In this document: piece after piece, positions 4,751 through 18,504 of the stretch
Position numbering within the stretch: the stretch's first letter is position 1
Layout: each line of letters opens with the position of its first letter
DNA from: a virus
DNA: 22,317 bases
Direction: 5' to 3' (one strand)
Virus record (IMG/VR): IMGVR_UViG_3300035698_011431
Location: 64,001 to 86,317 of that record
Position numbers and translations under genes: made by a program
Notes under the pieces: generated by a model
Told to the model about the DNA's origin: nothing
What the model saw: only the letters and a program-made list of their open reading frames with translations
The model's database searches: none

Positions 4751-5434
4751 ATGAATATAGGAATAATAATATTATATTCAGGGGAAAGGCTATTACAGAA
4801 ATGTTTAGATTCAGTAAAGGATCAATGCAAGAATATTATAATTGTGAGTAATATAAGTCCTTATCATAATGCAATCAATGAATGCTTTAGATTAGGAGTA
4901 AAGAACTTTGATTGGTTTATAGTATTAGATGCGGACACAACTTTAAAAGAAAATGTACTGGAAAGCTATCAAGAGATTATGGAAGACAATTTGTGGTGCA
5001 TTACAGGGCGTCTGGAAGACTATTATCACAAGGAAGGTAGAGATGGAACTATGATGTATAATTCAAAGGTAATAGGGGATTTTAAACATACGGATGATCC
5101 TAATACAGATAGAACAATACACGGGATATTTCATGAGAAAGGATATTCTAAAAAGAAGATAGAAGAGTATGTTGGAGTACATCATCCAGAATGGACATGT
5201 GAAGAAGCATTTAAAAGACATTTCTATTTGGGTACTAGGATAGATGACATGATGGAGTGGAGTGAAAGATTAGGATTCTTGTTTAGAGAAGACGGTCGTG
5301 ATGTGAATAAGGCTGCCTTGTTAGGGTTATATACAGGATTTTATCAACACAAAAGGCCTTTAAATTCAAAAGATGATAGTGATTGGGATAAAGTTAAAGA
5401 TCAATTTAATAATAACGAAATATTAAAATGGTAG
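4751..5434 (+). CDS. GT-A fold glycosyltransferase (GT2-like)
   Basis: A 227-residue protein. The N-terminus, MNIGIIILYSGERLLQKCLDSV, is the first strand and helix of a GT-A fold (GT2: strand, then E/R-x-L-x-x-C-L-x-S). WFIVLDADTTLKENVL at 55-70 holds the D-A-D metal and nucleotide-sugar motif (60-62). The middle region has Trp- and His-rich acceptor-side segments, including VGVHHPEWTCEE (about 161-172). It is short for a GT2 enzyme but has the full N-terminal donor half. The leader is AATAAATG with no Shine-Dalgarno, and the end overlaps the HisRS-like gene by 7 nt (ATGGTAG). Confidence 0.78.
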   Translation: MNIGIIILYSGERLLQKCLDSVKDQCKNIIIVSNISPYHNAINECFRLGVKNFDWFIVLDADTTLKENVLESYQEIMEDNLWCITGRLEDYYHKEGRDGTMMYNSKVIGDFKHTDDPNTDRTIHGIFHEKGYSKKKIEEYVGVHHPEWTCEEAFKRHFYLGTRIDDMMEWSERLGFLFREDGRDVNKAALLGLYTGFYQHKRPLNSKDDSDWDKVKDQFNNNEILKW

Positions 5435-6090
5435 TTAAAGAAACGACATATAAAGGAACTAGGATATTATATCAAGAAGAGGCATGGCAGAAAAGGGTAA
5501 TGATAAATACATTTGTAGAATATTTATTAAAGGCTGGATTCGATGAAATCAGTATACCAATAATACAGTATCAGGAAATTTTTAAAGCTAAAGTAGGGGA
5601 AGAGAATAATAATTTAATGTTTAAATTTAAAGATCGTGGACATAGGGACTTATGTTTAGCCCCTGAATATACAGCCATAATCCAGAAACTTAGTCAGGGA
5701 ATATTTAGAAAAGGAAAAGATGTGAAACTGTTTTATATTCAAGAATGTTTTAGAGGGGAGAAACCACAAGCAGGTAGATATAGACAATTTACACAACTCG
5801 GCGTTGAGATTTTGCATCCTAAATGTGATTATACTGAGGATTTACTATCATTGGCAGAAAACTTATTAAAGGTAATAGGGATTGGAGGTTATAATATAAA
5901 TAGAGATCAAAAGAGGGGGCTTGATTATTATAAAGATGGCAAAGGGTTCGAAATTGAATATTCAGATCTGGGTACTCAGAAACAAATCATTGGAGGTGGT
6001 CAATATGAAGGCGGAACAGGTTTCGCAATAGGTGTCGATAGATTATTAGAAATAAAATTAGACAAATGCAAAGAACACGAGAACAAATAA
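5428..6090 (+). CDS. Minimal class II aminoacyl-tRNA-synthetase-like core related to histidyl-tRNA synthetase
   Basis: A 220-residue protein. Motif 1 is FDEISIPIIQYQEIF (38-52). LCLAPEYTA (75-83) matches the HisRS L-R-P-E-x-T strand whose Glu binds the amino group. Motif 2 is FYIQECFRGEKPQAGRYRQF (102-121), then TQLGVEIL with the Gln and Glu positions of the histidine pocket. The HisRS-specific signature RGLDYY is at 163-168. Motif 3, GGTGFAIGVDRLLEI (195-209), has its Arg. HisRS is normally about 420 residues; here the insertion between motif 2 and RGLDYY is about 32 residues rather than over 100, and no anticodon-binding domain follows. It is therefore likely to activate an amino acid, probably histidine, without standard tRNA recognition. 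HisZ-like regulatory paralogues are the alternative, but those usually lose catalytic residues. It starts in the preceding gene's stop (ATGGTAG) and overlaps the following methyltransferase by 25 nt. Confidence 0.82.
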   Translation: MVVKETTYKGTRILYQEEAWQKRVMINTFVEYLLKAGFDEISIPIIQYQEIFKAKVGEENNNLMFKFKDRGHRDLCLAPEYTAIIQKLSQGIFRKGKDVKLFYIQECFRGEKPQAGRYRQFTQLGVEILHPKCDYTEDLLSLAENLLKVIGIGGYNINRDQKRGLDYYKDGKGFEIEYSDLGTQKQIIGGGQYEGGTGFAIGVDRLLEIKLDKCKEHENK

Positions 6091-6632
6091 TAAATACTAG
6101 ATATCAAGATGATTTCGAAGTAGCTAAATGGATTGATCAAAATATCAAAGGAAAATCTATTGGAGATTTGGGTTGTGGTTGGGGTGTAATAATAAGCGGA
6201 TTAAAGAATAGAGGATGGGATGTTTGGGGGGTAGATATATCAATAGAGGGAATCGCTTCTAATGTCATAGAATGTGTTAGGTCGGTCGATTTATCAAAAG
6301 AGGTATATTTGCACAAAGCTGATATTGCAATGTCTCTAGAGGTCGCTGAGCATCTCCCAAGGGGTTCTGAGGATATCTTTATAAAGAACTTAATGAAGTT
6401 GAATGCAGAAACAATAATAATGACGGTTGCAACCCTAGGGCAAGAAGCTAAGTCTCATACAAATATAAAACCCAGAAGGATGTGGATAGAAAAGATAGAA
6501 GCACAAGGATACAAGGAGAATGAAGCAATGGAATATAAGTTTAAGAAAGATTTGGAGGGGAAATTGGAGATTAAAGCGTGGTATAGCTGGAACATTATGA
6601 TATTTAATAAAAAAATTAATGAAAAAAGATAA
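6066..6632 (+). CDS. Class I SAM-dependent methyltransferase
   Basis: A 188-residue protein. Motif I is SIGDLGCGWGVIISGL (31-46), the acidic residue ending strand 2 is in WGVDISIEG (D57), and ADIAMSLEVAEHLP (85-98) is the motif IV and E-V-x-E-H-x-P helix of Methyltransf_11/UbiE-type enzymes. The start at 6066 overlaps the HisRS-like gene by 25 nt. No closer ATG gives a sensible N-terminus, and Y-x-D-D-F-x-V-A-K-W at 13-22 is a common lead-in of phage and glycan-cluster methyltransferases. The C-terminal half is Lys-rich. Coupling to the upstream adenylating enzyme suggests they may act in one pathway, but that is inference. Confidence 0.82.
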   Translation: MQRTREQIINTRYQDDFEVAKWIDQNIKGKSIGDLGCGWGVIISGLKNRGWDVWGVDISIEGIASNVIECVRSVDLSKEVYLHKADIAMSLEVAEHLPRGSEDIFIKNLMKLNAETIIMTVATLGQEAKSHTNIKPRRMWIEKIEAQGYKENEAMEYKFKKDLEGKLEIKAWYSWNIMIFNKKINEKR

Positions 6633-6830: not shown

Positions 6831-7853
6831 ATGAATATAAAGCAAACTAAGAAATATTTTAAAGAGTTAATAGGTTCAAATCAACATGAGTCAATAATGT
6901 TGTGGGGAGGACCAGGGATCGGGAAGAGCCAAGGGATTAAACAAGTGGCGAAAGAATTAAATGCTGATTTAATAGATTTAAGATTATCATTATTAAACCC
7001 TGTTGATTTAAGGGGATTGCCATTTATAGATAAAGCTAAACAAGAGGCTTCATGGCTTAAGCCTACATTTTTGCCAAAAACAGATAAGTTAACAATCTTA
7101 TTCTTAGATGAAATAAATTTAGCACCTTTATCTGTTCAGTCGGCAGCTTATCAATTGATATTAGACAGAAAGATAGGGGAATATGAGGTTCCTAATAATA
7201 CTTTTATTATAGCGGCAGGGAATAGGATGGAAGACAGAGCACATGTAACAGAATTCCCGGCACCTTTGGCTAATAGATTTATACACATAAATGTTGATCC
7301 TGATTATGATTCATGGAGAGATTGGGCAGTTAAGGAGGATGTTAATGAAAAGATTATATCTTTCTTATCAAATGATCCTGAATATTTATATAAGAAACCA
7401 AAGAAAGGAATCAAGGCATTTCCTACTCCGAGGAGTTGGGAGTTTGCTAGTAAAAATTTGAAAATAGATAAGACCATGAGAAAAGAAGTATTAGGTGGGA
7501 TTATTGGAGAGGAAGCAACAAATCAATTCTATTCTTGGGTACGGATATATAAGGATTTACCAGATATAGATAAAATTTTAGATGGGAGCATGATAGATAA
7601 AAGTGGATTCTTTAAGAAGGTAGATGTACCAAGCAGAAATGATATCTTATCAACTCTTGCAATATCATTAGGATTAAGGAGTAAGGTGAATAACTTTGAT
7701 AATGTAGTTAAGTATATAGATTATATGCCTAAAGAATATCAATTGCTTTATATTAATGTAGTTTTAAATGGACAACATGAAGATAAATTCAGATTAAGTG
7801 AAGCGTGGAAAGAATGGGATAAAAAAAATAAAGATTTATTAAATGACTTATAA
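6831..7853 (+). CDS. MoxR-type AAA+ ATPase
   Basis: A 340-residue protein. Walker A is GGPGIGKS (26-33), Walker B is ILFLDEIN (89-96), sensor 1 is AAGN (128-131) and the Arg finger lies in LANRF (145-150). The L-x-D-R-x-x-x-x-x-P-x-D-L-x-G-L-P stretch (48-64) is typical of MoxR/CobS-like AAA+ proteins, which remodel or insert metal into partner proteins together with a VWA-domain protein. Such a partner lies two genes downstream. The C-terminal 180 residues are helical and probably partner-specific. The leader is A/T-rich with no Shine-Dalgarno. It overlaps the next gene by 11 nt, so the three genes 6831-9488 probably form one translation-coupled module. Confidence 0.88.
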   Translation: MNIKQTKKYFKELIGSNQHESIMLWGGPGIGKSQGIKQVAKELNADLIDLRLSLLNPVDLRGLPFIDKAKQEASWLKPTFLPKTDKLTILFLDEINLAPLSVQSAAYQLILDRKIGEYEVPNNTFIIAAGNRMEDRAHVTEFPAPLANRFIHINVDPDYDSWRDWAVKEDVNEKIISFLSNDPEYLYKKPKKGIKAFPTPRSWEFASKNLKIDKTMRKEVLGGIIGEEATNQFYSWVRIYKDLPDIDKILDGSMIDKSGFFKKVDVPSRNDILSTLAISLGLRSKVNNFDNVVKYIDYMPKEYQLLYINVVLNGQHEDKFRLSEAWKEWDKKNKDLLNDL

Positions 7854-8364
7854 TATAATTGATAAAGATGATCAGGAATTAGATGTAATTGGAAAGAAAA
7901 GTAAAGAGCTTTTCATTCATTCCATGTTTCCTCCTTCGAAGATGTTACATATCAATACCCACAAAGAACAGGTAGAGGGAAAAGCTTTAAGGAAAGTATC
8001 AAGGGAATCAATATGGGCAAAGAATCTCCAAGGCGGACTATATTCTCATATGTTTTCAACGAGTTCTGTGGGTTTTCAAGACCATGAGGATCGCAAAGAG
8101 ACATGTATGTGTTGCGGGGAAGAAATAGATTATGGGAATGTATGTACAAAATGCCAATCATATTTAAGTAAGGCACAAATAGAACATTTAGATAATTATT
8201 GTGATAAATGTGATGAATATTTAGCTGAATGTGAACATCGCCCAGAGGATTTCTTTGTAGAGGCTTTTAAAGGGATAAATAAAGGGAATAGATGTGATAG
8301 TTGTGGGGTACACCCAAGTCAATGTGAATGCGAACATAATTTAGATGCTAATAAAATCAAATGA
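7843..8364 (+). CDS. Cys-rich, zinc-ribbon-like protein of the MoxR/VWA module
   Basis: A 173-residue protein. Residues 1-85 have no recognisable motif. The second half has repeated Cys pairs: CMCCGEEIDYGNVCTKC (about 88-104), YCDKCDEYLAECEH (about 119-132) and CDSCGVHPSQCECEH (about 151-165). These would form two or three zinc knuckles; the ECEH ending appears twice, which suggests internal duplication. It lies between the MoxR ATPase and the metallopeptidase-VWA gene and overlaps both (11 nt, and 4 nt as ATGA). It may bridge or specify the substrate of that module, which is inference. No named family recognised. Confidence 0.72.
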   Translation: MTYNIIDKDDQELDVIGKKSKELFIHSMFPPSKMLHINTHKEQVEGKALRKVSRESIWAKNLQGGLYSHMFSTSSVGFQDHEDRKETCMCCGEEIDYGNVCTKCQSYLSKAQIEHLDNYCDKCDEYLAECEHRPEDFFVEAFKGINKGNRCDSCGVHPSQCECEHNLDANKIK

Positions 8365-9488
8365 AAATAGATATAGCAAAATTTAAGATACTTAAGGAAA
8401 GACCTTTGTATGGAAAATTACTATATTATTTGAATTTTAAAAGAGAAGATAGCATTGAAACGCTAGGTGTAGATGGGGATGACAACCTTTATTATAACCA
8501 AGGATATTGGGATTCATTAAAGGGTGAAGAGCAGAAGTTTGTTTTATGTCATGAAGTTATGCATCTAGCGTTAAAACATTTATGGAGGGAGAAAGCAAAA
8601 GATCATGTGAAATGGAACATTGCCTGTGATTACGCTATTAATCAGTTAATAGATTATAGCCCTCCTAAGAATATATTATTAAGCGGGAAATATATAAATA
8701 AATGTGCTGAGGAAATATATAAATTATTGAAAGACAAGAAACAAAAAGGATTTGATAACCATAGTAAATGGGGAGATAAAAGTGAAAAGAAAAACAAGAT
8801 AAAGGGGAAGTCAAAGGGAGAAATAGAAACTACAAAAGAGAAGCAAGATAAGTGGGATGAAAGGACACAAACTGCTGTTAAATATTCAGAAGGGAAACAG
8901 AAAGGAACCGGATCAATATTAAAAGGATTGGGATTGGAATTCTTGGATGAATATAACAGTTATAAAGATATTCTATTGAGGTATGTAGATAATAAAGAAG
9001 ATGATTATGATTTTTATAAAGCAGACAGAAGATTTTTAGATCAAGAATATATTTTGCCATCATTCGCAGAGAAAGAAGTATTAAATTGGATTGCTATAAT
9101 AATTGATACAAGTGGATCGATAAGTCATGAAACATTATGGAAGTTTATAACCGATGTAAGGGGAATTATAAATGAATTTGATGAAGTAAAGGTAAAGTTA
9201 GCTTTTGCAGATGATCAGGTTTCTAAGTTTTATGATATAAATAAAATAGAAGATATCCCTCAATGTTATGGTGGGGGAGGGACTGATTTTAGACCAGCAA
9301 TAGCTAAAGTTAATAAGATGGATAATGCCCCTAAAGCATTGTTTTATTTTACAGATGGATATGGTGACTTTCCAAGGAAAGAGGATAGTAATGGGTATGA
9401 TACGTATTGGGTTATTACGGAATTAGAATCATTCTTAGGAGAAAAGATAACAGTCCCTTATGGAGAATTATTAAAATTTAAAGATTAA
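8361..9488 (+). CDS. Metallopeptidase-like plus VWA-domain protein (DUF2201-type)
   Basis: A 375-residue protein. The N-terminal domain has VLCHEVMHLALKH with HExxH at 64-68, then WNIACDYAIN at 85-94, whose D90 is the likely third metal ligand, as in the DUF2201 N-terminal metallopeptidase family. A Lys/Glu-rich linker spans about 120-185. The C-terminal VWA domain has the MIDAS motif DTSGS at 249-253, GGGTDF with the second MIDAS residue at 308-309, and FTDGYGDF at about 330-337. VWA proteins of this type work with MoxR AAA+ ATPases, and the MoxR gene is two genes upstream. No signal peptide or transmembrane helix is seen, so a cytoplasmic role is expected. It begins in an ATGA overlap. Confidence 0.86.
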   Translation: MKIDIAKFKILKERPLYGKLLYYLNFKREDSIETLGVDGDDNLYYNQGYWDSLKGEEQKFVLCHEVMHLALKHLWREKAKDHVKWNIACDYAINQLIDYSPPKNILLSGKYINKCAEEIYKLLKDKKQKGFDNHSKWGDKSEKKNKIKGKSKGEIETTKEKQDKWDERTQTAVKYSEGKQKGTGSILKGLGLEFLDEYNSYKDILLRYVDNKEDDYDFYKADRRFLDQEYILPSFAEKEVLNWIAIIIDTSGSISHETLWKFITDVRGIINEFDEVKVKLAFADDQVSKFYDINKIEDIPQCYGGGGTDFRPAIAKVNKMDNAPKALFYFTDGYGDFPRKEDSNGYDTYWVITELESFLGEKITVPYGELLKFKD

Positions 9489-9492
9489 GGGA

Positions 9493-9768
9493 ATGATTTA
9501 TTATTATGCAAAGACTAAATTGAATATGGGTATAATCAAAGAACCCGAAGACTTCGTAAAGGCATGGAAAAGTTTTAATGGATATCAAATCAGTGATGAA
9601 CTTCATGATAAGAGAAGACCAAACTGGAAGAATATGGATAGAATACAAAAAGCATTTGTAATGAAATGGGGTAGATGTTTTAGAGGGATAGTAAACCCAA
9701 CTTGTTGGAACAATTTAAATCCAGAAAATTATAAACAATTTGTAGATTTTGATATATATTACGAATGA
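9493..9768 (+). CDS. Hypothetical protein
   Basis: A 91-residue protein. It has a Trp-rich middle (KAWKSFNGY, RRPNWKNM, VMKWGRCFRG) and the sequence VNPTCWNNLNPENY near the end. No named domain recognised. The start is behind TAAGGGA, which could act as a weak ribosome-binding site. It overlaps the following glycosyltransferase by 4 nt (ATGA). Confidence 0.6.
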   Translation: MIYYYAKTKLNMGIIKEPEDFVKAWKSFNGYQISDELHDKRRPNWKNMDRIQKAFVMKWGRCFRGIVNPTCWNNLNPENYKQFVDFDIYYE

Positions 9769-10616
9769 ATACATCATTTAAAACAAGCATTATAACTACA
9801 GCTACTATAAATACACCATATAGAAACGACCCTTGGAAGGAAGCTATAAGATGTTATTTAGATTTTGCTGATGAGGTAATAGTAGTTTGTGGTCATCATA
9901 AAGATATACAAACAATTACAGAAGAGTTCGGAGATAACAAGAAATTAGTTTTAAATTATATGGATTGGCCATATAAATGGAACTGGATAGAATTGCCTAA
10001 GCATATGAATAGAGGGTTGGAGCTTGCTACTAAAGAGGTTATAATAAGGATGGACATTGATTATTTTATACATGAGAAAGACTTTAAGGAATTCAAGGAA
10101 CAATTAAAAGTGTTTTATGAGTCAGGGGATCTGATAGCAAAGACTTTAAAGGTGAATGTAATGAATAAGTATAATGGAATGATAAAGAGTAGAAATGCAA
10201 ATGTCATAAATGGTAGGAGGAAAGACGCAATAAGATTCGGAAAAGCAGAGAATAAGGAGACAGATTGGACAGTCCCGACAATAAATATCGGAAGTTGTAA
10301 GAAGCCGAAGTATATTGCATTTGAGGAGGCTGATAGTAAATTATTGAGAACATGGATATATAATTATGATTATTTCTTTTGTACTAAAAGAGATGTACAA
10401 AAAGAGTTCTGGAGGTTTGCACAAGCATATTCAGCTGCATTTATAAAATCATGGGGTGCAACTGAAGAAGAGGCATATGATAAATGGATAAGAATGCAAA
10501 CAGGACGTTTATTAAAGGCAGGGGAAGAAATAGATCATCCTAAATATATAAAGAAGCGGATAGATAAGATGCCGAGAGAAGAATGGGGGTATTGCAATTG
10601 GGATTTAATAAAATGA
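9765..10616 (+). CDS. GT-A fold glycosyltransferase-like protein
   Basis: A 283-residue protein. TSIITTATINTPYRNDPWKEAIRCYLDFADEVIVVCG (8-43) is the first strand, helix and second strand of a GT-A enzyme (strand, then an acidic and aromatic helix, then VIVV). EVIIRMDIDYFIHEKDF (91-107) carries the D-I-D metal motif (97-99). The C-terminal 120 residues are Trp- and Lys-rich and likely bind the acceptor. The family is not certain; it is distant from classical GT2 but keeps the donor-site layout. It lies downstream of the MoxR module and is ATGA-coupled at both ends. Confidence 0.7.
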   Translation: MNTSFKTSIITTATINTPYRNDPWKEAIRCYLDFADEVIVVCGHHKDIQTITEEFGDNKKLVLNYMDWPYKWNWIELPKHMNRGLELATKEVIIRMDIDYFIHEKDFKEFKEQLKVFYESGDLIAKTLKVNVMNKYNGMIKSRNANVINGRRKDAIRFGKAENKETDWTVPTINIGSCKKPKYIAFEEADSKLLRTWIYNYDYFFCTKRDVQKEFWRFAQAYSAAFIKSWGATEEEAYDKWIRMQTGRLLKAGEEIDHPKYIKKRIDKMPREEWGYCNWDLIK

Positions 10617-11059: not shown

Positions 11060-12067
11060 ATGAGAGTATTACAAGTCGTGGATTGCAAGTTTTGGGCCCT
11101 AGATAATTTAGTAAAATCAATAAACAAAAACTTAGAAGACAGGTTTGATATCTCGACAATATATATACATCCAAGAGAAGTTTCGGCAGGATTAGTTTCT
11201 ATTCATCAAGAGATAAGGAAAGGAATAGATGTGATTAATTTCCATTATTGGAGAACGGCTACCCAATTAATGGTATTAATTCCAGATTTAATGTTATATC
11301 CAAGGATATTAAGTCATTGGAATCATGAAAGTTTGGAAAAAGAAAGTTGGAAGAAATTTGGATATTTAACCCATCCAACTAAATACGGCAAAAACTTGCT
11401 AAGCAAAGATCATTCAAATGTAACAAGAATTCCAATGGGAATTGATTTGAGTCGATATAGTTATATCCCAGATGATCTTTATAGGAAGACAAGCAAGGAG
11501 ATAGCAATAGGATATATTGGACGAGTAGCAGATTGGAAGAACTTACATTTCATTTGTGAATGTTGTAAAGAATTAGGATATAAGGTAATAGCTTCAGGAT
11601 ATATTGATAAACCTGAATATTGGAAGAAAGAAGTGGAGCAATATGCAAATGATGGCACGCTAGAAATGAATGGAGGTATGGGTAGGGGCGAAATGATGGG
11701 AGCAATCTTTAAGGACAATCTATATAAGAGAATGACTGTATTAGCAATGGCTAGTGAAGGGGAATATGAAAGCGGTCCACTAGGTCCACAAGAGGCGATG
11801 GCAAGAGGTATTCCAGTATTAGCTACAGAAAAAGGCACATTAAAAGATAGGGGAGAAGATGGAAAGAATATAGTATTTTTTAAGGAAAATAATAAAAAAG
11901 ATTTTAAGGATAAATTGAAGGACTTAGTTGAAAATGAAGAGAAGAGGATGACTATAAGAAAACATGGATGGGAAACAGCAAAACAATTTCCAGAGAAACG
12001 AATGGCAATAGAGTTCGGGAAGTTGTATTATCAAGTCAACAGCGAATTCCAAAAACAAGGGGGGTGA
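11060..12067 (+). CDS. GT4-family glycosyltransferase
   Basis: A 335-residue, full-length GT-B enzyme. It begins with MRVLQVVDCKFWALDNLV (first Rossmann strand), has VINFHYWRTATQL (58-70) in the acceptor domain, the hinge signature IPMGIDLSRY (124-133), IGYIGRVADWKNLHFI (150-165) opening the donor-binding domain, and EYESGPLGPQEAMARGIPVLATEKG (235-259) as the E-x7-E loop and following strand. These are the GT4 landmarks. The residue before E-A-M-A is Gln, a common variant. The leader is TATGAATAAATG, A/T-rich with no Shine-Dalgarno. It would transfer a nucleotide-activated sugar with retention; the substrate is unknown. Confidence 0.88.
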   Translation: MRVLQVVDCKFWALDNLVKSINKNLEDRFDISTIYIHPREVSAGLVSIHQEIRKGIDVINFHYWRTATQLMVLIPDLMLYPRILSHWNHESLEKESWKKFGYLTHPTKYGKNLLSKDHSNVTRIPMGIDLSRYSYIPDDLYRKTSKEIAIGYIGRVADWKNLHFICECCKELGYKVIASGYIDKPEYWKKEVEQYANDGTLEMNGGMGRGEMMGAIFKDNLYKRMTVLAMASEGEYESGPLGPQEAMARGIPVLATEKGTLKDRGEDGKNIVFFKENNKKDFKDKLKDLVENEEKRMTIRKHGWETAKQFPEKRMAIEFGKLYYQVNSEFQKQGG

Positions 12068-12342: not shown

Positions 12343-12975
12343 ATGGAATTGATTAGTATTGTATTACCGACACACGAAAGACCAATAGAATTATCTAAAA
12401 TTCTACTTAGTATTGAAAAGAATAAGTATCCTGCGAAAGAAATAATAGTAATAGATACAGGGTTGCGAGATAAGGGATTAACAAGGAAGTTAATAGATAA
12501 GTTTAAGCCAAAATTCAAAACAAACATTCTATATCTAGATACTTGTCAGGAAGGATACGATTTAGCTATGGCAAGAAATATGGGAGTGGCTGAATCAATG
12601 GGAAGTATATTAATGTTTCTGGATGATAGATATGAATTAGATGAAGATGTTCTAGGGAAAATAGCTGAAGATGTAAATGAAAACACATGGCATTATGGAA
12701 AAAAAAGGATCAAAGGAAAGATAATTCATGAAAGACCATTTATAGAAAACTTTAGTTGGTTATATAAGAAAGAGTTTAGGAAGTTCGGTTGTTTTAATGA
12801 AAGAATTAATATGTATGGAGGGATGAGCCAAGATGTTAGGGAAAGGTGGCAGGCAATAGGGAATAAGTTCAAACAAGAAGATATATATGTTACTGAGATA
12901 GCGAGTTCGAAATCCAATCATGACAAGGAAGGAATATGGAAGATGAAGTATTTGCTTTATAGATTGAATAATTAA
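12343..12975 (+). CDS. Family 2 (GT-A) glycosyltransferase
   Basis: A 210-residue protein. ISIVLPTHERPIELSKILLSI (4-24) is the classical GT2 start (S-x-V-x-P-T-x-x-R). EIIVIDTGLRDK (33-44) is the second strand with the nucleotide-binding Asp, and AMARNMGVAESMGSILMFLDDRYELDED (75-102) leads to the D-D metal motif (94-95) after the usual R-N-x-G helix. GGMSQDVRERWQ (about 159-170) may correspond to the catalytic-base E/D-D region. It is short relative to most GT2 enzymes and has no transmembrane helices, so it is probably cytosolic. The leader is TAATAAAATAAGAAC, with no Shine-Dalgarno. Confidence 0.88.
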   Translation: MELISIVLPTHERPIELSKILLSIEKNKYPAKEIIVIDTGLRDKGLTRKLIDKFKPKFKTNILYLDTCQEGYDLAMARNMGVAESMGSILMFLDDRYELDEDVLGKIAEDVNENTWHYGKKRIKGKIIHERPFIENFSWLYKKEFRKFGCFNERINMYGGMSQDVRERWQAIGNKFKQEDIYVTEIASSKSNHDKEGIWKMKYLLYRLNN

Positions 12976-13392: not shown

Positions 13393-14586
13393 ATGAAGGA
13401 AGACTTATTTGATAAAGAAGGAAAGTTACAAAGAAAAATAAAAATTTTAGATATCACTTGGCATGTGATGCATCAAACTCACATGATAAGTGCTTTAAAA
13501 AATGATTGTGAGTTTTATTACTTATTAACCTCATGGAGGTCATGGCACGACAAGAGATTTTCAAGTGTTAGGGAAGTTCCTGAGGAGATTAATTGGATAT
13601 CAAGATACGAACCTGGGAAATATGATGTAGCTATATTGCATGTAGATCAAGCATCAATTGATCAAAAGACTGGTAAATATAAAATGCTACATGAGATAGA
13701 TGAACAAATACAAGATATTCCAAAAATAATATTAAATCATGGCAGTCCTGTAGACCCTGAATCGGGGATGCTTAAACAACCGGGAGATACGAATGAACAG
13801 GCACAAGAAAAATGTATCAAAATGATGAAGAAATTGTTACATGGTATGCCAATGGTAGTAAATTCTTATACGGCTGCATCTGACAAGGAATGGGGATGGG
13901 GAACACCGATAATTCATGGGATGCCTCATTTTACAGAAAAGGAAGGGAAAGAAATAAAACAATCATATAAAGAAAAGCTAGAAAAAGATAAATTTTATAC
14001 TATAGAAGAAGCATATATTGAATATGAAAAGAAAATAGGAAAACAAGGTTGGTGGGATCTCTTGAAAGAACCAAGATTATTCTCTGCATTAAGTCCTGGC
14101 GGATGGGCTACTTATTATAATCGAGATGTAATGTTAGCCCTTGTAGGGATCTTAAAAGATGATTACGGGTATCCTTTTTATTGGTGTAAAACATGTTTTC
14201 ATAGGACGAGGACAATGTTTCATCCATCAAATTTTAATGATTATAGAAGCTACTTAGGAAGGTCTTTGATATATTTTGATCCATCAATAAGGACTCCAAT
14301 GAATAGAGCTAGGAGTGAAGCTTTTTTTTCAGGGTGTTGTGTTGTACAAGTAGAAGGAGCGCATGATCTAGAGCGTTGGGCAAAGAATGGTGAGAATATA
14401 ATAATAGTTCCAAATAATCCAAAAGAAATAGCAAAAACATTAGTAGACTTAGTTGAAAATAGATATGAGGAAGCTATGGAAATAGGACAAAGGGGAAAGG
14501 AAATGGCAATGAAAGAATTCAATCCGACTAGATATCGACAAAATTGGATGGATGTTTTTGAAAAAGTATTAAAACCAATTAAATAA
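13393..14586 (+). CDS. GT-B fold glycosyltransferase (GT4-like, C-terminal domain clear)
   Basis: A 397-residue protein. The N-terminal half opens with KIKILDITWHVMHQTHMISAL (first strand and helix) and contains IILNHGSPVDP and HGMPMVVNSYTAA, the acceptor-side features. The donor domain reads RSLIYFDPSIRTPMNRARSEAFFSGCCVVQ (about 289-318), where the conserved E-A sits in R-S-E-A-F-F-S-G-C. GENIIIVPNNPKEIAKTL follows, then a helical tail that is usual for GT4 enzymes. The insertion with YPFYWCKTCFHRTRTMF (about 258-274) is unusual. The start lies after the nested-repeat region and has no Shine-Dalgarno; out-of-frame ATGs at 13383 and 13389 are close by. Confidence 0.8.
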   Translation: MKEDLFDKEGKLQRKIKILDITWHVMHQTHMISALKNDCEFYYLLTSWRSWHDKRFSSVREVPEEINWISRYEPGKYDVAILHVDQASIDQKTGKYKMLHEIDEQIQDIPKIILNHGSPVDPESGMLKQPGDTNEQAQEKCIKMMKKLLHGMPMVVNSYTAASDKEWGWGTPIIHGMPHFTEKEGKEIKQSYKEKLEKDKFYTIEEAYIEYEKKIGKQGWWDLLKEPRLFSALSPGGWATYYNRDVMLALVGILKDDYGYPFYWCKTCFHRTRTMFHPSNFNDYRSYLGRSLIYFDPSIRTPMNRARSEAFFSGCCVVQVEGAHDLERWAKNGENIIIVPNNPKEIAKTLVDLVENRYEEAMEIGQRGKEMAMKEFNPTRYRQNWMDVFEKVLKPIK

Positions 14587-15846: not shown

Positions 15847-18504
15847 ATGTTTGAAAAGATACAATCTTTGTTTACAAAACCAATACAGAAACCAATACAG
15901 CAGCCAATAATAAAAGCTCAAAATTCGTCACGAGCAACTGATTTCACACCATCGGCTTCTTTTGATATGAAAGAACCACCACCACTTACGATGACAGAGC
16001 AACTGAAAACATATAGATCGTGGGTGTTTGCAGCAGTATCAATGAAAGCTGCGGCTGTAGCCAGTATGGAATTAACCTTATTTAAAAAGACAAGAGGGGA
16101 TATTGAGATAGTAGAAGAACATCCTGTTTTAGATTTACTAGATAAGGTAAATGAGAGGATGACCTTTTATGGATTAATGAATTATTCCAGTATAATAAGG
16201 AATTTATCAGGAGAAACGTATTGGTTAATGATTTTCAATAATAAGGGGGAACCTGTTGAAATATACCCATGGATTAGGCCGGATTATATTACAGTAATTC
16301 CATCAAAAGATAGGGATGAATTTATAAAGGGATATGTTTATACAGTGCCAGGATCACAAGAAGAGATTCCTTTAAATACAGAGGAGATTATTCAATTCTT
16401 AGATGTAAATCCTATCAATCCTTATCGAGGACAATCACGAGTTGCAGCTACAGCATTTGCAATTGAAACTGATAAAAAAGCATCTGCATGGAACTGGAGG
16501 TTTTATAAGAATAACGCAACTCCAAGGGGTATTTTAAAAATTCAAAACAGATTTGATGAAGCTCAATACAAACAATTGAAAGCTTCCTGGGATGCAGGAC
16601 ATCAAGGAGAGTCGAATTCTAATAAGGTGGCGATAATATTTACAGGTAGTGCCGGAACGGATGCTGATTTTATGGAGGTTGGGATGAGTACTAAGGACAT
16701 GGATTTCCTTAAGCAAAGAGAATATTCAAGGGATGAAATTTTATCAATATTTGGAGTTCCATTTTCATTATTAAATCCAGGGACTAACGTAAACCGGGCG
16801 ACAGTTGAAGCAGCGCAAGTTAATTTCTTAACTAATACGGTTAGGCCGGAGATGAGAGAATGGACAGAAGAGTTAAATGAATTCTTATTGCCTTTATATA
16901 ATGATTCAGAAGGATTATTTTTTGATTTTACTGATCCTGTCCCGGAGAATAGAGAGTTAAGTCTAAAAGCTTATGATAGTGGCCTTAATTTAGGATGGTT
17001 AACAGTAGATGAAGTGAGAGCTAAAGAAGGATTACCACCTTTAACAGAGAAAGAGAAAGAAGCCCAAGATTCTAATGTTCCAGAAGGAGACGACAATTCA
17101 GAGGATAAACCAATAGAAGAAGATGAAGATGCACCACCAGAAGATGAAGGAGAACAAGAGGGGGATGGGGAAGAAGCGGAAGTTGAAAAAACCTTAAAGA
17201 GGAGAAAATTCAATGTAAGGGTAAAGTCGTCAACACCAAAATCTAAGATAGAATCAATAGTTGATAAGGCAACAAGTGTTGAATTAAAGAGAATATTAGA
17301 AAAACAACTAAAAGACAAAGCTCCAAAGAAGAAGAAAAAGGTAATAACAAAGAGAATAAAGACAAGTCAAAATGAGAAGATATTCCAAAAAAGTATAAAT
17401 GAAGAGGAAAAGTTTCTCCAAAAGTTTTATGATGAGAATTTTCTAGATGAAGTTATAAAAACAGAGAAAGAAATTCAAGCCTATTTAGTTAAAAAATATG
17501 AAAAAGCCCCATCGGAAATTGTTAATGGAGTATTAGTCTTCAAGCAGAACGATAGATTAAGGAAAGAAATGGAAAAATGGATAGATAAAAAGATGTCAAA
17601 ACTATTAAAAGACTTCACAGGAGAGAAGATGAAGGAATTGCATAACAATAGCGAAGTAATTGCCAAACAGGCCGTCAAAGACATCTCACGAGCTTCTAAG
17701 GGGTTTGTGTCGAATATCGCAATGTTTATTAAAGGATATTTGTCTAATATTAAGGCATTTATATTCAATGAAGGGAGAAGGATCAAGGAGAAGATAACAG
17801 ATAACTTATTACAAGGTGTAATGGTTTCATTGGCTATTCAACAAGCTAGAGAAACTAGTCTTAATAAAAATACTTTAAAGCTTTCAGCAATATCACATCC
17901 AAGGGGATTATATCGTAAAACAATAGAGGATGCTGCTGATAAAGATGGGATAAGTTTCTTTAAAATGTTAGCTCCACTAGCAGTAATACCAACATTATCT
18001 AAGACGGGAATGACAATGGCAGCATTGTATATGATTAAGACTAAGGATGAATGGAATAAACATATTGATCCTAATAATAATACTAATGTAGTTGGAGGAT
18101 TAGGGTTACATCATGGCTCACAGGATTATTATTTACCTGAAGGATTTGAAAGTTTAAAAGAAGAGAAAGAAATATCAAAAGAACAGAGAAGAGAATTGAA
18201 TGGGAAGTCAATAAAGCCTATAAAGTCACTCGATAAAAAACAGATAGAATCTTATAAGAAGGAGATAGAAGAAGTTAAGGGTGAGATTGAAAAGAATTTT
18301 AAAAAGAAAACCAAAGAATTAGAGAAGGAATATCTTAAGAAAGAAAAAGAAACAACGGAAGGAACATCGAAGAAAGTGAGTGTAATAGAATCTAAATGTA
18401 AAAAGCTAGAAGAAGAGAAAGAAGAACTTCAAAAAGAAGATAATAAAATAAAACAAAAAGAAGAGAAACTAGAAAGTTTAATTTCTGAATTTGAAAATGA
18501 ATAA
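15847..18504 (+). CDS. HK97-type portal protein with long C-terminal extension
   Basis: An 885-residue protein. Residues about 45-405 are a HK97-family portal (Phage_portal, PF04860-like): RSWVFAAVSMKAAAVASMELTL (57-78), ETYWLMIFNNKGEPVEIYPWIRPD (123-146), QFLDVNPINPYRGQSRVAA (183-201), NGN-type FYKNNATPRGIL (219-230), and FLKQREYSRDEILSIFGVPFSLLN (287-310). Residues about 411-447 are an acidic linker of Asp and Glu. Residues about 448-885 are extra: basic, then helical, with WNKHIDPNNNTNVVGGLGLHHG near 736 and a Lys/Glu coiled coil from about 770 to the end. The extension may be a fused minor-head (MuF/gp7-like) protein plus coiled coil; typical portals are 400-500 residues. The portal sits at the vertex through which DNA enters and leaves the capsid. 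The 18504 stop overlaps the next gene by 8 nt. Confidence 0.85.
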   Translation: MFEKIQSLFTKPIQKPIQQPIIKAQNSSRATDFTPSASFDMKEPPPLTMTEQLKTYRSWVFAAVSMKAAAVASMELTLFKKTRGDIEIVEEHPVLDLLDKVNERMTFYGLMNYSSIIRNLSGETYWLMIFNNKGEPVEIYPWIRPDYITVIPSKDRDEFIKGYVYTVPGSQEEIPLNTEEIIQFLDVNPINPYRGQSRVAATAFAIETDKKASAWNWRFYKNNATPRGILKIQNRFDEAQYKQLKASWDAGHQGESNSNKVAIIFTGSAGTDADFMEVGMSTKDMDFLKQREYSRDEILSIFGVPFSLLNPGTNVNRATVEAAQVNFLTNTVRPEMREWTEELNEFLLPLYNDSEGLFFDFTDPVPENRELSLKAYDSGLNLGWLTVDEVRAKEGLPPLTEKEKEAQDSNVPEGDDNSEDKPIEEDEDAPPEDEGEQEGDGEEAEVEKTLKRRKFNVRVKSSTPKSKIESIVDKATSVELKRILEKQLKDKAPKKKKKVITKRIKTSQNEKIFQKSINEEEKFLQKFYDENFLDEVIKTEKEIQAYLVKKYEKAPSEIVNGVLVFKQNDRLRKEMEKWIDKKMSKLLKDFTGEKMKELHNNSEVIAKQAVKDISRASKGFVSNIAMFIKGYLSNIKAFIFNEGRRIKEKITDNLLQGVMVSLAIQQARETSLNKNTLKLSAISHPRGLYRKTIEDAADKDGISFFKMLAPLAVIPTLSKTGMTMAALYMIKTKDEWNKHIDPNNNTNVVGGLGLHHGSQDYYLPEGFESLKEEKEISKEQRRELNGKSIKPIKSLDKKQIESYKKEIEEVKGEIEKNFKKKTKELEKEYLKKEKETTEGTSKKVSVIESKCKKLEEEKEELQKEDNKIKQKEEKLESLISEFENE

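Follow-up and report, generated by a model that had tools for sequence, protein, structure and literature searches.

A gene at 5428-6090 of the window (forward strand) very probably encodes a natural minimal histidyl-tRNA synthetase (HisRS) that charges tRNA-His. The window, by which we mean the whole stretch of 22,317 nucleotides that was analysed, spans positions 64001-86317 of a virus record of 86,317 bases and is AT-rich, with ~33% GC. The gene was characterized from its open reading frame, with HMM and sequence searches and an AlphaFold model. For the wider family, found mostly in huge phages, we consider it likely that these minimal enzymes are able to replace full-length HisS and that a large branch of them controls its own synthesis through an RF2-like +1 frameshift at a histidine codon, with a histidine-free product.

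The window gene and its product

The coding sequence begins with ATG and specifies 220 residues plus a stop. The preliminary description had reported all of the HisRS landmark motifs in a protein of about half the usual length, encoded between a glycosyltransferase and a methyltransferase gene and overlapping both, and our analysis bears this out. The N-terminal HisRS signature KGTR (residues 9-12) lies at 5452-5463, in a region that sits in the other frame in the frameshifted relatives described below; the invariant proline of motif 1, P44, is at 5557-5559, and the histidine-binding loop LAPEYT (L77-T82), with P79, E80 and T82 invariant, is at 5656-5673. Motif 2 and its loop, YIQECFRGEKPQAGRYRQFTQLGVE (residues 103-127; 5734-5808), include the catalytic R109 and the acceptor-stem loop PQxGRYR, which resembles the E. 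coli HisRS loop in the alignment. Further along the same strand are RGLDYY (residues 163-168; 5914-5931), the HisRS-specific histidine site, GGGQY (residues 189-193; 5992-6006), the second histidine-site motif, and motif 3, GFAIGVDR (residues 198-205; 6019-6042). The class II motifs 1-3 and the histidine-specific residues are thus all present, and E80, T82, R109, Q123, E127, R163, Y168, Y193 and R205 are invariant across 35 relatives. As their equivalents in E. coli HisRS we take E83, R113, Q127, E131, R259, Y264, Y288 and R311.

Two parts of a full HisRS are absent, the insertion domain and the anticodon-binding domain. At the place of the former (~125 residues), a linker of 35 residues (5809-5913) joins motif 2 to RGLDYY, against a median of 125 in full HisRS, and only 15 residues follow motif 3, against a median of 109; the preliminary description had likewise noted that the insertion is nearly missing and that nothing lies beyond motif 3. 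In a profile search, the protein matches TIGR00442 (hisS) with E=4e-42 and 144.7 bits, far below the full-length cut-off of 286.75 bits, as a protein without the canonical HisS architecture. It also matches Pfam tRNA-synt_His (4e-20) and E. coli HisRS (1e-20), and a search of PHROGs returned no family for it. The AlphaFold model (pLDDT 87, pTM 0.85) has the HisRS fold: its top match in the PDB is 2el9, E. coli HisRS with a histidyl-adenylate analogue (TM 0.79), and the next matches are catalytic domains of pyrrolysyl-tRNA synthetase. The short form therefore shares with canonical HisS (TIGR00442) motifs 1-3, LxPExT, RGLDYY, GGxY, the motif 2 acceptor loop and the fold, and differs from it in being half as long, in lacking both domains and in occupying a separate branch of the tree.

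A protein of this kind could instead be a regulatory or decoy paralogue that carries out no aminoacylation, such as a HisZ-like subunit of ATP phosphoribosyltransferase or a sensor of tRNA-His or histidine. HisZ (TIGR00443) is itself a HisRS paralogue without the HisRS anticodon-binding domain; it does not aminoacylate and has HisG as its partner. In RefSeq, plasmid-borne bacterial copies of the short form are named ‘ATP phosphoribosyltransferase regulatory subunit’, the name also given to the Paraburkholderia entries. However, the window protein scores higher with hisS than with hisZ (144.7 versus 82.3 bits), every catalytic residue is invariant, the flanks that were examined as annotation or translation showed no hisG, and genomes that have lost hisS keep a separate HisZ-like protein. 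On these grounds we do not count the protein as a HisZ and regard a paralogue without aminoacylation as very improbable; the view that the gene is neither decayed nor a HisZ, already expressed in the preliminary description, stands.

The upstream neighbour (4751-5434, forward strand) is a glycosyltransferase of family 2 that overlaps the HisRS reading frame by 7 nt, and the downstream neighbour (6066-6632, forward strand) is a methyltransferase-like open reading frame that overlaps it by 25 nt. Glycosyltransferase-like genes, called partly by HMM match and partly by looking at the sequence only, occur at 1-639, 4751-5434, 9765-10616, 11060-12067, 12343-12975 and 13393-14586; they are mixed with methyltransferase-like genes, and all lie upstream of a phage portal protein gene at 15847-18504. 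At 6831-9488, a MoxR-like AAA ATPase is followed by a DUF2201 metallopeptidase/VWA protein, which PHROGs names an HNH endonuclease. Elsewhere in the record, a tRNA-like gene with an anticodon that has no assignment is found at bases 35086-35156 (L221:15086-15156).

The short form as a family and the loss of hisS

Scans of viral DNA yielded 14 and later 66 loci with a short HisRS, in which some contigs are represented more than once; further carriers are two metagenomic phages of 635-642 kb and Sinorhizobium phage Phosso (469 kb). The short form is thus present in dozens of phages, mostly huge, and occurs sporadically in Pseudomonas, Paraburkholderia, Chromobacterium and other bacteria. Its median length is 209.5 aa (n=74); motif 2 is separated from RGxxYY by 35 residues, against 125 in full HisRS, and the tail beyond motif 3 has 7 residues, against 109. 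Since half length is the norm of the family, the window gene is not truncated. The suggested search of viral metagenomes finds the same short form conserved there, and relatives of ~210 aa are not fragments of a longer HisRS, the outcome that would have spoken against the original reading; a fragment or a decayed or truncated gene is ruled out by the existence of a conserved short family with an intact active site. The family, its conserved residues and the loss of domains can be read directly from the sequences. In a maximum-likelihood tree, all sampled full HisRS fall on one side of a branch with support of 100/99, and the short forms split into two large groups.

One decayed relative was seen in a 141 kb phage contig (L014:9995-10544), with an internal deletion before motif 2 and a broken frame. 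In three other loci (L007, L011 and L016), a tryptophanyl-tRNA synthetase-like gene (MKYLVGIQPTGKIHIGNYMG..) lies <5 kb from the short HisRS.

The first six bacterial carriers that were checked also have a full HisS. Two genomes belonging to one family, G442 and G619, carry contiguous short forms of 217 and 223 aa and have no hisS over the cut-off, only a HisZ-like protein; both short forms fall on the window's side of the tree, in which the one from G442 is included as L183. Among the 38 other genomes of this family, which have no short form, full hisS is present in 33 and was not detected in 5, so a missing hisS is weak evidence when taken alone, and the argument is carried by a relic and a gap at the hisS site. 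In G595, the gene order is hscA-fdx-rlmN-pilW-rodZ-hisS-yfgM-bamB-der (gene names read from the sequences). In G442, the ~230 bp between rodZ and yfgM contain relics of the N- and C-terminal parts of hisS (2e-9), whereas in G619 pilW is joined directly to yfgM, leaving a clean gap. Both sites are inside contigs, and neither region contains an N. The short form appears to have replaced HisS in these two genomes, a case that we consider strong but not final, the completeness of the assemblies not being stated.

Given the loss of hisS in two carriers, together with the unconserved neighbours and the adjacent tRNA-His genes described below, the short form is most likely a working enzyme, and the family most likely represents a natural minimal HisRS that aminoacylates. 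Engineered HisRS urzymes without the insertion and anticodon domains activate histidine and acylate tRNA-His (PMC4082485). These urzymes, or N-terminal catalytic domains, are HisRS cores stripped of the same two domains, but they are laboratory constructs, whereas the present family consists of natural genes. A 2022 review of duplicated synthetases has HisZ as its sole HisRS entry (PMC9437257).

The acceptor

The preliminary description had proposed that histidine is passed to something other than a tRNA, for example a modified base, a glycan or a peptide. Such a histidine-adenylating enzyme, possibly with a carrier protein as acceptor, would resemble the carrier-protein ligases derived from aminoacyl-tRNA synthetases, which are also synthetase cores without tRNA-binding domains (PMC9437257); these domains are missing here too, and a glycosyltransferase and a methyltransferase flank the window gene. 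However, no carrier protein or conserved partner gene was found for the short HisRS. Across the 22 loci of the window's group, each cluster of neighbouring genes turns up in three at most, and the glycosyltransferase and methyltransferase are not conserved beside relatives; they therefore carry no information on the acceptor, and the proposal based on them was dropped. The motif 2 acceptor loop is kept, tRNA-His often adjoins the gene in relatives, the split relatives described below have a histidine codon at the frameshift site and histidine-free proteins, and hisS has been lost in two carriers, all of which point away from a non-tRNA acceptor and leave it a small probability. From the unconserved neighbours, the adjacency of tRNA-His, the histidine-codon frameshift and the loss of hisS, tRNA-His is in all probability the acceptor of the minimal HisRS.

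In several huge phages, a tRNA-His gene adjoins the short HisRS. Of the 42 tRNAs within 150 bp, 10 are for histidine, compared to a share of 7.6% overall (P=5e-4), and in 11 of 40 loci no tRNA lies closer than tRNA-His (P=1.4e-4). Both results are inflated by related phages; the clustering is independent of phylogeny only in part, and a nearby tRNA-His is absent from many loci. Three relatives in the window's own group have a tRNA-His elsewhere in the record; the 86-kb record that contains the window, probably a genome fragment, yielded none.

By strict count, 22 of 33 of these tRNA-His genes have G-1 and C73, and three more do so by eye. In bacteria, histidine identity consists of G-1 and C73, acceptor-stem minihelices with G-1-C73 are charged by HisRS, and the HisRS motif 2 loop covaries with C73 (PMC9976931). 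Identity elements of this kind, together with minihelix charging, would explain how a synthetase can do without an anticodon domain. The minimal HisRS would activate histidine with ATP and then transfer it to tRNA-His, recognizing the acceptor end (G-1:C73) through the kept motif 2 loop, with no check of the anticodon and no insertion domain. Phages that carry the enzyme, often with a tRNA-His of their own, may thereby sustain the decoding of histidine during infection, and in two bacteria a relative of the window gene would have taken over from HisS.

Some loci contain a second tRNA-His without G-1, either with U72 and A73 (L061:5290-5363, L065:6704-6776, L073:5399-5474) or with U73 (L066:4991-5066); these genes resemble the alpha-proteobacterial type and may be charged by the HisRS of the hosts. 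Genes for tRNAs with a CTA anticodon, labelled Pyl by ARAGORN, are found at L006:3410-3482, L010:17151-17303, L061:11798-11885 and L066:10379-10535 and are probable amber suppressors. Dense tRNA arrays enclose the short HisRS in L064, L069 and L076 (38, 42 and 45 tRNAs in loci of 10-12.6 kb).

Split genes in the sister group

The window gene is contiguous, with no frameshift, and its product contains 3 histidines; it is therefore without the histidine-codon switch of its relatives. In 45 of these (21 phage, 24 bacterial), an N-terminal segment (MLRGTR..) is encoded in one frame and the rest of the protein in the +1 frame, and both the open frame and the protein conservation change frame at the same site. 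At the junction, the 0 frame has CTT in 37 and GTT in 8, and the codon that follows is for histidine in all 45 (CAT in 40, CAC in 5), with a stop directly after it in 19. Examples are AGGGGG TCT CTT CAT TGA (L065), CGGGGG TAT CTT CAT AGC (L079) and, from Pseudomonas, CCGGAGC TAT CTT CAT CGA. The slip codon is 27 codons from the start in 41 of the 43 members with the common site and 28 in the other two. In L060, which belongs to the other group of the tree, the site is nine residues earlier, and in L082 it is near codon 71, at VCL-IPE, again as CTT CAT; across the 45 relatives, the site thus occupies three positions in the gene. Scored for Shine-Dalgarno (SD)-like pairing, the upstream stretch of the median phage member ranks among the best 2% of sequence windows; in bacteria the pairing is moderate, and the stretch is weak in L058, L077 and L070. 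When CTTC is read as a single step, L085 and Phosso each give a full-length protein in which the hisS match begins at profile position 3 instead of 27; across the junction, the Phosso peptide is predicted to read ..DTLRGC-L-IEADYEE..

The arrangement resembles that of prfB, the RF2 gene, whose site is AGGGGG NNN CTTTGA (PMC12421855); of the sites tried in the RF2 setting, CUU_U performed best (PMC5009743). Shared features are the SD-like AGGGGG, the 3-nt spacer, CTT near codon 26, the +1 shift and, as proposed here, feedback control by the factor that handles the codon at the stall. An SD-like element ~3 nt before CTT and continuation in the +1 frame were found in the 45 loci, 8 of them with GTT; re-pairing of tRNA-Leu from CUU to UUC should be good, and by codon-anticodon pairing GTT would be a poorer slip codon than CTT. 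Unlike prfB, the relatives have no in-frame stop read by their own product: the ribosome would stall at a histidine sense codon instead of UGA, in a gene for an aminoacyl-tRNA synthetase, and would respond to charged tRNA as the signal.

Genes could also look split through errors in sequencing, through decay into pseudogenes or through internal starts, and the start codons annotated for the Phosso and Paraburkholderia proteins do lie within the second frame. Against this, independent assemblies, isolates among them, show the identical break with CTT/GTT-CAY at 45 loci; protein-level conservation of the first frame ends at the site, and the SD-like stretch lies upstream of it. Several members have no ATG, GTG or TTG in the second frame before the conserved region, which, with the conservation of the upstream frame as protein, led us to reject an internal start. 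We give this explanation of the split relatives hardly any weight, less than either alternative considered above. With annotated starts inside the second frame, the predicted frame-fused protein has been missed by annotation. We consider a programmed +1 frameshift in the sister group highly probable.

The composition of the predicted fused proteins suggests what the frameshift may sense. Together they contain 1 histidine in 9,333 aa, and 44 of the 45 have none, compared with 4 of 179 phage open reading frames of comparable length and 5 of 22 full-HisRS cores; methionine and cysteine occur in all 45. Contiguous short forms are also depleted, with no histidine in 20 of 40. The split frame, the histidine codon and the near absence of histidine are, like the hisS relic, matters of direct observation. 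Since the fused proteins are nearly histidine-free, the enzyme can be made when charged tRNA-His is lacking, and a histidine codon at the slip site combined with such a product predicts autoregulation by charged tRNA-His. A histidine codon stands at the stall in all three positions, for which it is difficult to find an explanation other than a sensor. We therefore think it likely that the frameshift senses His-tRNA-His. In the mechanism that we propose, synthesis in the sister group would require a +1 ribosomal frameshift, signalled by the SD-like stretch and the CTT (or GTT) slip codon ahead of the histidine codon. When His-tRNA-His is scarce, the ribosome would stall at this codon, slip into the +1 frame and complete the protein; when it is plentiful, the ribosome would read histidine and meet a stop soon after.

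No mention of a histidine-codon frameshift in a HisRS gene was found in the recoding literature searched, a search excluding preprints and most subscription journals, so its novelty is provisional. In the GeneTack survey of 2013, one +1 cluster labelled ‘tRNA synthetase’ comprises 215 genes from 81 genera and is placed in class PV (apparently phase variation); with 81 genera, this cluster is a poor fit to the sporadic short HisRS family.

If these readings are true, the family provides a natural aminoacyl-tRNA synthetase close to the minimal core so far engineered for work on the origin of translation, and some bacteria may live on a minimal HisRS. RF2 autoregulation has been a textbook case for decades; the frameshift branch would extend its logic beyond stop codons to a hungry sense codon, and the frameshift cassette would be a direct sensor of tRNA charging in the cell. 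Finally, phage pairs of tRNA-His and HisRS with G-1:C73, in hosts that lack G-1:C73, would be natural orthogonal pairs, an example being Sinorhizobium phage Phosso if its host follows the alpha-proteobacterial rule.
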